38,341 nucleotides of DNA from an uncultured Mediterraneibacter sp. (lineage in GTDB: Bacteria > Bacillota > Clostridia > Lachnospirales > Lachnospiraceae): contig NZ_CALWFZ010000020.1 of the NCBI RefSeq assembly GCF_944377805.1, forward strand, positions 1-38,341, given 5' to 3'. Position numbers and translations under genes: made by a program. The notes beneath the pieces were generated by a model. That model saw only the letters and a program-made list of their open reading frames with translations, searched no databases and was not told the origin of the DNA. Shown here in pieces: positions 19,698-24,011 of this stretch. How positions within the stretch are numbered: position 1 is the first letter of the stretch; the number at the start of each line of letters is the position of its first letter.

Positions 19698-19949
19698 CAA
19701 CTGTGTACCTCCCTTTCAACAATCTCAGGATAGACCCTCTTTCTTAAAATCAGGTGAAAGAGAATCTAAAGAATTCTTAAGAAGCAGCACAGAAAAATTA
19801 AAATGGTGTATAATCAGTTTTGGCAAAGTAAGAAGAGTTCATACTGGTTCAGAGGAAAGAGGTACTACAAGAGAAAAGAAAAATTATCAGAAAATTCAAA
19901 CAAAATAGAACAAATAATAAATTTATTTTAAATAAATTTTAAAAATGCA

Positions 19950-19978
19950 TTGACAAATTGTGGCCTTAGTGCTATTAT
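19950..19978 (+). promoter_or_regulatory. Near-consensus sigmaA promoter of the orphan transcription unit
   Basis: TTGACA (19950-19955), a 17-nt spacer and TATTAT (19973-19978). This is among the best promoter matches in the window. The predicted start is near 19985, about 110 nt before the first good start codon. Confidence 0.8.
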
Positions 19979-20095
19979 ATAACCATCCAAAAGAGATCAG
20001 AAATAAAATCTTCTCGGAAGGATATTTATCTAAGCGAACAAAAGATACACTTGTTCAATTAGATTAAAAATACAAGATAGCAGGAGGTAAGTCCA

Positions 20096-20188
20096 ATGGA
20101 CAGTATAGTTTCAGTTTTTCATCAATATGTCAGTGGTACGGCAAATGAAAGTTCCTGTGATGTAAGAGACCTTTGCTGGAAACGATAG
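20096..20188 (+). CDS. Small ORF of 30 codons with strong translation signals
   Basis: ATG at 20096 follows a perfect AGGAGGT (20082-20088) at a 7-nt spacing and ends in TAG at 20186. The peptide begins MDSIVSVFHQYVSG and has two cysteines (SSCDVRDLCWKR at the end). I recognise no family. The same frame continues past the TAG through a second TAG at 20210 and then 37 sense codons to a TAA at 20324. It could therefore be a remnant of a longer gene. A leader peptide, a small secreted or modified peptide, or a chance ORF in an RNA are the other readings. Confidence 0.4.
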   Translation: MDSIVSVFHQYVSGTANESSCDVRDLCWKR

Positions 20189-20680
20189 ATTAATAATCCG
20201 GAAATATTTTAGAATGAAGAAATGATCGGAGAGTACGGAATCCGGATGAAAATCAGACAAGATTTATCATTTGCAGACGTATTGAATATAGATACCACAT
20301 ATAGCGGAATTTCAAAAGATGTGTAAAGAAACATTGAGTAGAATATTATTTTATAGTAAAGAGCACTTAGTTATAGAAGTAATAATTCAGTACCCGGCAC
20401 AGAATCCGAACAGGAAAACGTAAAAGGGGAACCATTATAGGAAGAATAACTTGGGAGGCTTTTTAAGAATATAAAATGGTACCGGGGATCGGAACGCAAG
20501 GGATGATAAGGATGCCGCTATGAACCTCAAATTGTTATTGAAGGAGGGAAGATTTAGTAAGCAGGTCTTAATAAATCGACCGCTGATCAAATAACAGATG
20601 GCAGAGGTCTCACAGGAACAGAATCTACACATTTCCTCCGATTTATAATATAGAAATATGATAAAATTAAATAGTTTATG

Positions 20681-20717
20681 AATGCATCTTCAATGTCAAC
20701 TGGAGGTGCATTTTTTT
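20681..20717 (+). terminator. Strong intrinsic terminator of the orphan unit
   Basis: AATGCATCTTCA (20681-20692) pairs with TGGAGGTGCATT (20701-20712): 12 pairs including two G-U, an 8-nt loop, and a run of seven Ts (20711-20717). The T-run overlaps the -35 box of the next promoter. Confidence 0.88.
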
Positions 20718-20744
20718 GACATAATGGAACTCATATGATAAACT
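20716..20744 (+). promoter_or_regulatory. SigmaA promoter for the TPR/AAA gene
   Basis: TTGACA (20716-20721), a 17-nt spacer and TAAACT (20739-20744). The -35 box is built into the end of the upstream terminator T-tract. The leader is about 75 nt. Confidence 0.6.
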
Positions 20745-20825
20745 AGTGAAAAATGTTGTCTTGCGTTAAGAGTCTGATAGACAGATACTGACCAATGAAA
20801 TTATTTTTTCGATGGGGTGAATGCG

Positions 20826-23800
20826 GTGGATAAGTACGAATATAAGCTAAAGACAGAGCAATTACTTGAACTGGTGGAGGAAGGCTCATATGGAAAAGCC
20901 GCGGAGATCGCGGATACGATCGACTGGAGAAGAGTTCGCAATGCTTCCATGCTGGCAAATGTCAGCGACGTTTATGAGAAGAACAGGGAATATGAGAAAA
21001 GCTACGATGTGCTGAATATTGCTTACCGCCGTGCCGAAGGAAGCAGAAAGATCATAAGCAGACTGTGCACGCTGGCTCTGAAGACGGGAAATGTGGATGA
21101 AGCGATTGATTATTATGATGACTTCATGCAGATTGCGCCTAAGGATCCGAATCAGTATATTCTCAGATACCAGATCCTCCGCGCTCAGAAAGCGCCCGTT
21201 GAGCAGCAGATAGAGGCTCTGGAAGAGTACAAGAAGTCGGAATACATTGAAGAGTGGGCCTATGAACTGGCGAAGCTTTATCAGGAGGCGGGCATGACGG
21301 CGGAATGCCTGGAAGAGTGCGACGATCTGATTCTCTGGTTCAGCGAGGGTCAGTATGTGTATAAAGCGATGGAATTAAAGATGCAGTATAAGCCTCTTAC
21401 TCCGTCTCAGCAGGAGAAGTACGACAGAAGATACGAGAAACTGTCCGGGGAGACAGAGGAAATGCCTGACATTGTCACTTATGCCGAGACAAAGGGCAGT
21501 GCCGGAGCTGTCGAAGACGAGAGCGATGCCGAGGAAGTTCCGGCTGACAGCCGGACAGGCGGAGAGAATACGGGAGAGACAATTTCTGATTCAGAGCATA
21601 CAGGTGAAACAGATGCGGATGGCTCGGCTGTGAGCACGTCTGTTTCTGACGACGCTGCCGAGATCGAGAGAGAGGAGACGGCTGCGGCGCCGGCGATAGA
21701 GGAGACTGCTGTCCAAGAGGAAGAACCTGTCGTAAAGAAGAAAAAGATCGGAAATACGATGCCTCTCGACGAAGCGCTCAGACAACTGCTTCAGCCAAAA
21801 AGCGAAGAAAAACAGGAGCAGGATGCTTCTGCCGGTGAGGAACCGGAGCCGGAACTGGACGATCTTGAGGAAGTAATCGGTGAGATCGAATCGGTTGTGG
21901 ACGTGGATATGGTAAAGCAGATGGCGGAAGATAAGAAGAAAAAGCAGGCGACTTCCAACGGTGAGATGACCGAGATCATTCCCGAGGAGGATGATGATCA
22001 GATCGACGGTCAGATGAATCTGGAAGATATTCTGACAGATTGGGAGGGAGCACCGGCTGCGGAAACGGAAGAGACTGTGGAAGAGGCACTTCCCGAACTT
22101 GACGCCGAAGTGATTTCTAAGACCGGGGAGGACAACACCTCCGAGGCGGACGCAGAAGAAACAGCGGGAGGAGATCTCGCTGCGGCGGACGCAGAAGAAG
22201 CAGCGGAAGAAGACCTCGTTGTGACGGACGCGGAAGAAGCAGTGGAAGAAGAGATCGCTGCGGCGGATGCAGAAGAAGTAGAGGAGGAAGAAGATCTCTC
22301 CGAGGCGGACGCAGAAGATATAGAAGAACTTCTTGCGGCAGATGCCGAAGAGATGGAGGAGGAAGATGAACTTCCGGAGGATGAAACGGAAGAGAATGAC
22401 CAAGAGGAGATTATAGAAGAAGGGGAAATAAAAGGGGAGACAATGGAACAGAAAACGAAAAAGATGGAACCGATTCTGCCGCCTGACATTCAGCGCATGA
22501 TCGATGAGATCGAGGGAGTAATTCCGCCGGAGGAAGAGAACGAGCCGGCTCCGGTTCGTACGGTCAAGAAGGAAGAACCCCGTGAGAATATGGGAAAGGT
22601 AGCAGATTCACTCCGCATGGAGGATGATTTCGACAGCGATATTGACGAGTTCGGAGAAGACCTGGAAGAAGATTTGTTTGACGACAGAGAGACGTCGGAC
22701 GAAGCGGAGGAATACTTCGATGAAGAGGAAGATCCGGACGAAGATGAGGAGTACTTTGACGAAGCCGAGGATCTTGATGAAGGGGAAGACTATTTCGATG
22801 AAGGTGAGTATCTCGACGAGGATGAGGAGTACCTTGACGAAGGCGAGGACCTTGATGAAGGGGAAGAGTATCTCGATGAAGATGAGGACCTTGGCGAAGC
22901 GGAAGAGTATTTTGATGAGGATGAGGAGTCTGACGACAGCGAAGTCTTTGCAGAAGACGCGGAAGATATTGACAGCATTTCTGACTGGGATGAGGAATTC
23001 AGAGTAAATCCGGAACATGCGGATTTGGAAGATGACAGAGAAATCCCTGACGATGATGACGACAATATGGACATTCTTTCTGCCACAACTCCGCTCAGCC
23101 GGAAAGAAACGGCGAAAATGATCGCTACCGGAAAGACAGCGCCGCTGCCGCTTGATGAAATATCCGACGCTCTTTCCATGACCGATACAGGATTCATTGT
23201 ACATGGCCGTTATGATCTGGGTGTGCAGAGCGGTATCGGAACGAGGGCAGGGCTTACGGAAGAGCAGAAGAAGCTTTTCTCATACTTCGTGCCGGTGCGC
23301 GGTATGAGCGAGCAGCTGGTGGACGTTCTGGAACAGGATAAGAACTGTACAAACCGCCAGGGTACTTCAAGAACGGGAAATCTCCTGATTATAGGAAATA
23401 AAGGAAACGGAAAGACAGTTCTTGCGGTAGATGTAGTAAAAGCGATCCAAAAGCAGCGGAACATCCATCAGGGCAAAGTGGCAATTGTGACAGGTGATTC
23501 TCTGAATAAGAAAAAGATCGGTGATATATTCGACAAACTGTACGGTGGGGCGCTGATTATAGAGAAGGCCGGAAAGATGAACGAAAAGACTGTGGCGCGC
23601 CTGAATAAGGCGATGGAGAAAGACACAGGAGAGCTTCTGATTGTACTGGAAGAGCAGAGGAAGCCGATTGACCGTCTGCTCTCGTCCAACAGAGAGTTCC
23701 GAAGAAAGTTCACTTCGCGCCTTGAAGTGCCGATTTTCATCAATGATGAGCTCGTCACATTTGGGCAGACATATGCTCAGGAGAACGGATACCGTATCGA

Positions 23801-24011
23801 TGAGATGGGAATTCTGGCGCTTTACAGCAAGATCGATTCTCTTCAGAGGGAAGATCATGCCGTGACAGTGGCGGAAGTCAAAGGGATCATGGACGAGGCG
23901 ATCCAGCACTCCCAGAAGGCGTCCGCGAAGAAGCTGGTGAAACGAGTATTCGGTAAAAATACAGACGAGGCGGACAGGATCTTCCTGTCGGAAAAAGATT
24001 TTAATATCTAG
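20826..24011 (+). CDS. Large cytoplasmic protein: TPR N-terminus, acidic repeat region, degenerate CbxX/EccA-like AAA domain
   Basis: About 1061 residues with no signal peptide or membrane span. Residues 1-215 form helical TPR-like repeats (YEKSYDVLNIAYRRAEG, NVDEAIDYYDDFMQIAPKDP). Residues about 220-790 are extremely Asp/Glu-rich and probably disordered, with two sets of 13-residue repeats. The C-terminal part has a Walker A, GNKGNGKT (857-864), in a CbxX/SpoVK-like AAA context. The Walker B position reads LIIEKA (910-915) where the family has a D-E pair, so ATP may be bound but poorly hydrolysed. TPR plus CbxX-type AAA recalls EccA of type VII secretion, but no secretion genes are nearby. 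GTG at 20826 is preferred because GGGGTG lies 6 nt upstream; GTG at 20817 is the alternative. Confidence 0.75.
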   Translation: MDKYEYKLKTEQLLELVEEGSYGKAAEIADTIDWRRVRNASMLANVSDVYEKNREYEKSYDVLNIAYRRAEGSRKIISRLCTLALKTGNVDEAIDYYDDFMQIAPKDPNQYILRYQILRAQKAPVEQQIEALEEYKKSEYIEEWAYELAKLYQEAGMTAECLEECDDLILWFSEGQYVYKAMELKMQYKPLTPSQQEKYDRRYEKLSGETEEMPDIVTYAETKGSAGAVEDESDAEEVPADSRTGGENTGETISDSEHTGETDADGSAVSTSVSDDAAEIEREETAAAPAIEETAVQEEEPVVKKKKIGNTMPLDEALRQLLQPKSEEKQEQDASAGEEPEPELDDLEEVIGEIESVVDVDMVKQMAEDKKKKQATSNGEMTEIIPEEDDDQIDGQMNLEDILTDWEGAPAAETEETVEEALPELDAEVISKTGEDNTSEADAEETAGGDLAAADAEEAAEEDLVVTDAEEAVEEEIAAADAEEVEEEEDLSEADAEDIEELLAADAEEMEEEDELPEDETEENDQEEIIEEGEIKGETMEQKTKKMEPILPPDIQRMIDEIEGVIPPEEENEPAPVRTVKKEEPRENMGKVADSLRMEDDFDSDIDEFGEDLEEDLFDDRETSDEAEEYFDEEEDPDEDEEYFDEAEDLDEGEDYFDEGEYLDEDEEYLDEGEDLDEGEEYLDEDEDLGEAEEYFDEDEESDDSEVFAEDAEDIDSISDWDEEFRVNPEHADLEDDREIPDDDDDNMDILSATTPLSRKETAKMIATGKTAPLPLDEISDALSMTDTGFIVHGRYDLGVQSGIGTRAGLTEEQKKLFSYFVPVRGMSEQLVDVLEQDKNCTNRQGTSRTGNLLIIGNKGNGKTVLAVDVVKAIQKQRNIHQGKVAIVTGDSLNKKKIGDIFDKLYGGALIIEKAGKMNEKTVARLNKAMEKDTGELLIVLEEQRKPIDRLLSSNREFRRKFTSRLEVPIFINDELVTFGQTYAQENGYRIDEMGILALYSKIDSLQREDHAVTVAEVKGIMDEAIQHSQKASAKKLVKRVFGKNTDEADRIFLSEKDFNI
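22146..22373 (+). repeat. Tandem acidic repeats, ADAEE type
   Basis: Six imperfect units starting A/T-DAE-E/D. The first three are exact 39-bp (13-codon) periods (ADAEETAGGDLAA, ADAEEAAEEDLVV, TDAEEAVEEEIAA); later units are 11-14 codons. They lie in the disordered centre of the TPR/AAA protein. Confidence 0.85.
22707..22940 (+). repeat. Six tandem 39-bp repeats encoding 13-residue EEYFDE units
   Basis: Six successive 13-residue units with no gaps: EEYFDEEEDPDED, EEYFDEAEDLDEG, EDYFDEGEYLDED, EEYLDEGEDLDEG, EEYLDEDEDLGEA, EEYFDEDEESDDS. The repeat length keeps the frame, so copy number can vary without breaking the protein. The DNA is strongly purine-rich on the plus strand. Confidence 0.95.

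Follow-up and report, generated by a model that had tools for sequence, protein, structure and literature searches.

A conserved class of structured RNA very likely exists in the Lachnospiraceae, and one of its copies is encoded in a 38,341-nt stretch from an uncultured Mediterraneibacter sp. (contig NZ_CALWFZ010000020.1; this whole stretch is referred to below as the window). The uncatalogued RNA gene spans positions 19950–20717 of the window, and its transcript has a predicted length of ~730 nt. Comparison of homologues shows that a predicted pseudoknotted core, composed of the helices P2a, P2b, P3, P3b, P4, P5, and PH, is kept by compensatory change, and that a putative short frame with a strong ribosome-binding site, mostly of 26–32 codons (~15 in one subgroup), is kept open within this core. 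On balance, we lean towards explaining the element as a translation-gated structured RNA, probably nutrient-controlled. A preliminary description of the region had favored a functional structured RNA over a decayed gene, and this preference is borne out: the element is conserved and covarying, has no Rfam match, and bears no consistently longer protein frame in 57 homologues.

The predicted transcription unit is delimited by signals that were correctly recognized at the outset. Its near-consensus promoter (19950–19978, plus strand), TTGACA-17-TATTAT with an extended −10 TG, matches the consensus at 11 of 12 positions and is kept in the genus, while in other genera a similar promoter is found within 180 nt upstream of the core at 33 of 51 loci. 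The unit is closed by a strong intrinsic terminator (20682–20717, plus strand), a hairpin followed by seven Ts, which is also kept in the genus; in an alignment of 56 homologues it is 97% paired, with two-sided changes in 5 of 15 pairs. This terminator is absent from the list produced by a simple scan, and the same pattern did not reveal a terminator in L095, L101, L106, and L114, among others. The promoter of the downstream gene (20716–20744, plus strand) has a −35 element that overlaps the T-run of the RNA terminator, an overlap also present in the genus sequences shown. The 12-pair hairpin initially noted at the 5′ end is real, but it is made of three short helices with mismatches (20025–28/20065–68, 20030–33/20059–62, and 20036–41/20051–56, within 20025–20068 of the plus strand); these are 93–98% paired, the apical one with two-sided changes in 6/6 pairs, and the whole hairpin is missing from some homologues.

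The initial statement that reading frames in this region are broken at a roughly random frequency holds as far as length is concerned. The longest open frame of the window copy comprises 80 aa (shuffled sequences give a median of 70 and a 95th percentile of 108), and in 57 homologues the longest frames have a median of 79 and a maximum of 140, exceeding 108 in 5 of the 57; no consistently longer protein frame was seen among these homologues. What that statement missed is a plus-strand frame of 30 codons, which is conserved and is considered below. The longest open frame of the RNA region (20000–20700 of the window) lies on the minus strand in 56 of 57 homologues, perhaps only because that strand is poor in A.

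Conservation in close relatives, which had been named as a check, is extensive at two taxonomic levels. A DNA search with positions 19940–20720 recovered the element in 54 of the 58 genus genomes, a few matches being partial and located at contig ends, and in all 35 genomes of good quality. A DNA pattern of the core identified 53 stretches in named genomes, 52 of which resemble the element by BLAST; the remaining match, L100, lacks BLAST similarity to the element and was dismissed as a chance hit. Among the carriers are [Ruminococcus] torques ATCC 27756, [Ruminococcus] faecis JCM 15917, Mediterraneibacter massiliensis, M. glycyrrhizinilyticus, and M. catenae, as well as Faecalicatena orotica, F. 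contorta, and F. faecalis. Beyond the genus, the RNA core was sought with two covariance models, R1 and R2, the latter built from R1 matches. In a sample of the Lachnospiraceae, R1 recognized the core in 56 of 397 genomes (48 of 334 genera), and R2 in 82 of 397 genomes (69 of 334 genera) at 83 places. R1 had a single match in the order sample (1/196), which was the window's own genome, and R2 had two in the class sample (2/245) and one in the phylum sample (1/119); all of these matches fall within the Lachnospiraceae, some genomes of which are contained in the order and class samples, and the filters applied were strict, so that weak copies may be missed.

Usually, a genome has one copy of the RNA. 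Among the 82 genomes listed for R2, only G163 has two matches (C12:353063-353250 and C7:23854-24032), of which one adjoins a TPR-AAA gene (see below) and the other lies elsewhere, as in a possible duplication. Two genomes of the window's genus, G026 (C73 and C25) and G061 (C22 and C57), carry two long copies on different contigs; with a contamination of 4–6% in these genomes, this may reflect either a second copy or mixed assemblies. At the locus L132 (G001:C5:304000-311500), a second match to the terminator/promoter region lies ~4 kb after the RNA, as if the locus had been split by an insertion. One copy, L114, comes from a contig of the viral collection IMG/VR and may belong to a prophage or to a mis-sorted chromosome. 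Searched against 50,697 phage and 72,556 plasmid records as a single blastn query, the core of the window had no match, and an origin from phages or plasmids was rejected on this ground.

The core is organized around long-range helices, all on the plus strand. The helix P3 (20123–20131/20276–20284) is 97–98% paired in family-wide alignments and includes the pair 20130/20277, the top covarying pair among all pairs tested. It is crossed by the pseudoknot P4 (20133–20138/20293–20298), 98.2–99.7% paired, and is adjoined by P3b (20141–20147/20268–20274), which is 85% paired, with two-sided changes in 7/7 pairs and E<0.05 for 3/7; the 3′ strands of P3b, P3, and P4 thus occupy 20268–20298. The 3′ strands of P2b and P2a occupy 20599–20619. 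In the genus-level set, every pair of P2a (20151–20158/20612–20619) is intact and sequence variation is almost absent. P2b (20166–20178/20599–20611) is the 13-pair helix of the preliminary description, whose coordinates were correct: the pairing is exact in the window and 97.1% paired in 56 homologues. The caution that such a helix could arise by chance does not stand, as 7 of its 13 pairs change on both sides, and the idea of a single closing helix is too simple for an architecture in which the pseudoknot P4 crosses another helix.

Two hairpins complete the core, namely P5 (20196–20202/20241–20247), in which the pair 20200/20243 switches between GC and AU, and PH (20318–20335), whose loop GU(A/G)AAGAA is kept in most copies while its stem changes and covaries (2/5 pairs with E<0.05). 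A variable domain (20300–20522, plus strand), with helices 20300–07/20515–22, 20344–55/20470–81, 20369–74/20446–51, 20400–08/20413–21, and others, is shorter in some species, e.g., at L028 and L030. There is also a candidate helix PA, in which GG(N) beside the 5′ GGAGG would pair with bases before CCTT (GGCTTA/TAAGCC, GGCA/TGCC, GGCAT/ATGCC, and GGTC/GACC). In other genera, an AAGCC corresponding to the 5′ strand of P2b can instead pair with the GGCTT beside GGAGG, so PA and P2b may be alternatives, the window using P2b for that strand.

The evidence that these helices are maintained comes from several comparisons. For 56 near-full-length homologues (57 sequences minus L128), RNAalifold proposed 187 pairs; tested against tree-simulated alignments with per-column rates kept, 5 of them had E<0.05 and 15 had E<1, compared with 0–1 and 1–3 pairs, respectively, when the partners were slid by 1–3 columns. 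For the core set, 8 of 38 pairs had E<0.05 on the tree-aware null, versus 0–1 when slid. In the model-fitted alignment A2 (65 distinct rows), 93.8% of cells are paired versus 27.2–38.1% when slid, and 33 of 38 pairs change on both sides; in the sequence-only alignment A4 (57 cores), the respective values are 92.9% versus 23.1–44.7% and 27 of 34 pairs. Such tests of a proposed structure favor a structure derived from the same sequences, and the tests of P2a and P4 are less exposed to this circularity. For P2a, strands were swapped among 31 loci of other genera: the own-strand score was 18.61 versus 13.84 (sd 0.58) for swapped strands, and none of 500 swaps reached it, meaning that the two strands change together.

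P4 is less exposed because the alignment model did not contain it. It was first spotted by eye on A2 and then tested on A2, A3, and A4, which have most sequences in common. In A4 (n = 57), it is 99.7% paired, with two-sided changes in 3/6 pairs; in A2, it is 98.2% paired, with such changes in 6/6. Compensation is exemplified by GTGATACT with AGTATCAC in L183 and by GTAGTAG with CTACTAC in L190, while none of the six P4 pairs is significant singly on the tree null. De novo covariation is weak: when all pairs were tested blindly, no more than one from the full-length set and two from the core set beat every simulation. All of these are Watson–Crick pairs within proposed helices (P5 in the full-length set; P3 and P5 in the core set). 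As to the composition of the alignments, L016, L021, L106, L164, L194, L197, and L206 were left out between A2 (66 sequences) and A3 (59), L194 lacking part of P3; L191 and L202 were left out between A3 and A4 (57), L191 lacking an aligned 3′ strand of P4; A2 includes all of them, and one earlier genus-level pairing table was made without L086, L101, L106, L123, and L128. Taken with these limits, the covariation proposed as a check at the outset is present when measured against slid, shuffled, tree-simulated, and swapped controls.

The label “non-coding” initially given to the region has to be revised, since a short frame with its own ribosome-binding site runs into the core. In the window, it comprises 30 codons (MDSIVSVFHQYVSGTANESSCDVRDLCWKR) and a stop (20096–20188, plus strand), the start being located 8 nt after GGAGG. 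Among 106 homologues (2 duplicates removed), a start could be scored in 100, namely ATG in 70, TTG in 26, and GTG in 4, these being the only starts that the search pattern allowed; five of the six unscored sequences (L023, L024, L027, L046, and L099) show an aligned ATG. In 97 of the 100 scored homologues, no stop interrupts the frame for at least 15 codons, and in 81 it has 26–32 codons, whereas the other two frames reach 15 codons in only 21 and 34. The stretch from codon 3 to the conserved QY codons is variable and unpaired in the model. Of 76 distinct stretches, only 3 contain a stop in frame 0. The other two frames are interrupted in 52 and 24 of them, and shuffling predicts 35.6 interrupted stretches (sd 4.2), with 23 as the lowest count among 2000 shuffles. 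The 51 loci of other genera taken alone give 3 frame-0 stops versus 21.3 expected, with 0 of 2000 shuffles as low. Between the start and QY, 94 of 98 anchored sequences have 24, 27, or 30 nt; the remaining four (19 and 22 nt) look mis-anchored on a second TCAATAT.

The encoded peptide is conserved less strictly than the frame. No excess of synonymous changes was found, the observed/expected fraction being 0.66 in frame 0 versus 0.91 and 0.96 in the other frames. A QY.SG.A motif recurs in most of the aligned peptides from other genera, and the strands encoding it are base-paired. No Pfam or NCBIfam family above the cut-off was found for the four peptides tried. In the Faecalicatena group, a 1-nt difference alters the C-terminus of the peptide, with a length still of ~30; in one subgroup, the frame ends at 15–16 codons, before P2a; and in 4 of 51 copies from other genera (L194, L200, L205, and L217) it is lost or changed. 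Phase is not preserved in the second half of the frame. Among gap patterns, only 8 of 15 within the frame and 27 of 78 after it have lengths divisible by three; these counts are affected by alignment artefacts and are not taken as support for the frame. By comparison, the open frame and the avoidance of stops argue that the frame is probably translated. Since it is kept open while synonymous changes are not favored, what counts seems to be translation as such and not the peptide, with selection apparently acting on ribosome passage more than on the product.

The ribosome-binding sequence of this frame may itself take part in the fold. GGAGG (20083–20087, plus strand) is also the putative 5′ strand of a helix P1, and its partner CCUCC (20635–20639) is presented in the loop of a 3′ hairpin (20621–20625/20640–20644, within 20621–20644 of the plus strand). 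In the family, CCTCC is found within 60 nt after the P2a partner at 26 of 47 loci, compared with 0.18 expected from shuffles, and it is absent in its exact form from the other 21. It sits some 8–21 nt after the 3′ strand of P2a, and in most cases GAT or GGT follows. Because GGAGG and CCUCC are nearly invariant, the pairing is not provable by covariation; provided that P1 pairs, GGAGG would be hidden in the folded RNA. The coding stretch, in turn, covers the 5′ strands of P3, P4, P3b, P2a, and P2b, all of which a ribosome has to open in order to translate it.

Upstream of the promoter, there is a palindrome resembling a CodY box, AATTATCAGAAAATT (19882–19896, plus strand), which has one mismatch to AATTTTCWGAAAATT, the sequence that we take to be the CodY-box consensus. 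In the genus, the best match upstream of the −35 element has at most two mismatches in 41 of 56 promoters, compared with 0.6% of shuffles, and three to five mismatches in the remaining 15. In other genera, where the matches are weaker, 8 of 41 promoters have one with at most two mismatches and 18 of 41 with at most three (0.6% and 5.8% of shuffles, respectively); the shuffles preserve composition only. The positions of these boxes are restricted as well. The best matches in the genus start at −66 to −69 from the −35 element in 48 promoters and at −75 to −77 in 8, while among the 18 boxes of other genera, 11 start at −67/−68 and 4 at −96 to −98; such spacings suggest helical phasing. The genome encodes a CodY protein, and, as the upstream genes differ among genera, the CodY-like site probably serves the RNA. 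Control of the RNA gene by CodY is plausible, binding and its sign being assumed here.

On the other side of the RNA gene, on the same strand, lies a gene (20817–24011) for a protein with TPR repeats, an acidic middle part, and a weak AAA domain similar to CbbX/SpoVK/EccA, designated here as TPR-AAA; the protein has no family above the cut-off, and its domains did not point to a function. In 34 of 83 copies, representing many genera, the start of this gene is no more than 2 kb from the RNA core, with both on one strand. In 14 copies, the gene shares a contig with the RNA at a distance of ~4 kb to 3.3 Mb; in 24, it is on another contig, some of these copies lying at contig ends and possibly still being neighbors; and in 11, there is no TPR-AAA gene among the matches listed. 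The C-terminal part of the protein matches 356 of 397 genomes of the family, the weaker matches being perhaps to other AAA proteins. No gene is common to all RNA neighborhoods (22 loci, among the matches listed). A putative aconitase-like gene lies upstream of the RNA at L193, L196, L197, and L205, and its presence in several distant genera suggests one ancestral neighborhood. As only 34 of 83 copies adjoin the downstream gene, the RNA is no fixed leader, and an obligate leader role was rejected on the same basis. The RNA is hence a gene of its own, and its shared neighborhood seems to be an ancestral one; a partnership with the TPR-AAA protein is possible.

None of the known RNA classes considered accounts for the element, in agreement with the initial impression. 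The covariance models of Rfam 15, which include OLE, ROOL, GOLLD, and raiA, gave no match at the gathering score in the window and 14 related loci, and below the threshold there were three weak matches, the best with 18.7 bits and an E-value of 0.75. The raiA motif (RF03072) has no match in the window or in the genome, while the same model matches 19 of 118 genomes of the class; in the reverse comparison, R2 gave only one match of 6.9 bits (E 2.3) to 12 raiA loci. According to PMC11706538, raiA RNA (ModT) has a role in growth transition in C. difficile; it is a pseudoknotted structured RNA from Bacillota whose sigma-A promoter is conserved, features reminiscent of the RNA described here. The two differ in their conserved sequences and in the lack of a noteworthy model match either way, and a relationship between them was rejected. 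To our knowledge, raiA RNA has no embedded frame. OLE RNA has been described as a large, ornate RNA found in anaerobic and Gram-positive bacteria and connected with nutrient use and the ribosomal protein bS21; it resembles the present RNA in being large and elaborate, but the latter has no Rfam match. A membrane RNP with OapA is a further characteristic of OLE RNA. According to PMC12286853, ROOL, predicted to contain multiple pseudoknots, and GOLLD, many representatives of which exceed 800 nt, are likewise large and very elaborate but are encoded by phages or prophages, often near tRNA islands. In contrast, the RNA considered here is chromosomal in the studied loci, and ARAGORN found no tRNA in the window, so a phage or tRNA-island setting is not seen there. 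RNA-only homo-oligomers are another characteristic of ROOL, GOLLD, and OLE.

The presence of a frame calls for comparison with two other groups. RNAIII/hld, SgrS, and SR1 are dual-function RNAs that combine a structured regulatory RNA with a short frame, and the folding of RNAIII affects the translation of its frame. The present RNA is similar to them in its conserved start, ribosome-binding site, and open frame; it differs in that its frame is threaded into a pseudoknotted core, as seen in most sampled genera, and that no synonymous constraint is seen on the peptide. Another structured RNA with pseudoknots and a short frame is tmRNA, characterized by tRNA-like ends and a tag frame, which was not detected in the window by ARAGORN or by Rfam; the frame described here differs from that of tmRNA in having its own start and ribosome-binding site. 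No published description of the RNA was found in the one open-licence library searched. Parts of it may be among the supplementary candidates of PMC8040213, which reports 3161 candidate RNAs from human microbiomes; Ruminococcus, Blautia, Roseburia, and Eubacterium are absent from the main texts of PMC11109978 and PMC8632094, as far as the available portions of those texts extend.

How translation and folding might be connected can be outlined as follows. In the folded RNA, the 3′ CCUCC would close GGAGG, which would create a switch between two states. Ribosomes that load on the frame and translate it would have to separate the 5′ strands of P3, P4, and P2a from their partners, and when translation is lacking, the pseudoknotted core would form. 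The upstream CodY-like site may tie transcription to the supply of amino acids and GTP, and the candidate outputs of the core are protein binding, catalysis, or a target RNA. Translation-gated folding as the working principle is an idea that we regard with slightly more doubt than belief. As a working guess, drawn by analogy, the RNA may be a protein-bound regulator of the growth state comparable to raiA/ModT or OLE RNA. Still more tentatively, it may represent a new class of RNA machine in the Lachnospiraceae, in which ribosome traffic on the short frame sets the fold: the SD (GGAGG) and an anti-SD mimic (CCUCC) would close the RNA, and translation through the core would turn it off or on. 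The RNA, controlled by CodY, would report on the capacity for translation, and its folded core would work in trans as an RNP, a ribosome-directed decoy, or a ribozyme.

Other explanations differ mainly in the meaning that they give to the frame. If the RNA were purely non-coding, a scaffold or ribozyme similar to OLE, ROOL, GOLLD, or raiA, the frame would be a by-product of conserved sequence. The strong structural covariation fits well with such a view, as do the absence of synonymous preservation of the peptide, the loss of the frame in a few copies, and its out-of-phase second half; what makes this explanation unlikely is the rarity of frame-0 stops in a stretch that is variable and unpaired in the model (3 of 76, as opposed to 52 and 24 for the other frames and 35.6 for shuffles). 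The opposite extreme is an mRNA for a microprotein, in which a peptide of ~30 aa is the product and the RNA fold controls only its synthesis. The conservation of the ribosome-binding site, start, and frame and the recurrence of QY.SG.A in other genera speak for it, yet QYxSGxA is encoded by base-paired strands, the synonymous fraction in frame 0 (0.66) is below that of the other frames (0.91 and 0.96), and the peptide tolerates both the 1-nt change of its C-terminus in Faecalicatena and a shortening to 15–16 codons in a subgroup. With about seven-eighths of the predicted transcript outside the frame and none of the four peptides assigned to a Pfam or NCBIfam family above the cut-off, this possibility appears quite improbable.

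A cis-acting attenuator or leader of the TPR-AAA gene, in which translation of a leader peptide would decide on termination at 20717, is less probable again. A short leader-like frame and a terminator are indeed present, and in 34 of 83 copies over many genera the RNA lies directly upstream of the gene on the same strand; however, the gene has its own promoter overlapping the T-run, and the RNA is apart from it on the same contig in 14 copies, on other contigs in 24 (some at contig ends), and unaccompanied by it in 11 among the matches listed. Finally, the decay of a protein gene, or an intergenic sequence conserved by chance, would agree with the lack of a long plus-strand frame and with the 1-nt indel in one lineage, but it can hardly be reconciled with compensatory changes, conservation over 69 sampled genera, a promoter and a terminator kept in the genus, and the lack of a consistently longer frame in 57 relatives, and its probability is practically negligible. 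A structured RNA whose fold is gated by translation is the explanation that we retain, at the modest strength given to it above.

For the abundant Lachnospiraceae of the gut, these results mean that about a fifth of the sampled genomes of the family (82 of 397), with Mediterraneibacter torques among the named carriers, have a match to a structured RNA that is not represented in Rfam. Only a few large structured RNAs are known from bacteria, and unusual biochemistry has been found in the ones examined. The conserved frame in the pseudoknotted core makes a coupling of translation to RNA folding directly testable, and the CodY-like site offers a first physiological handle on the RNA.
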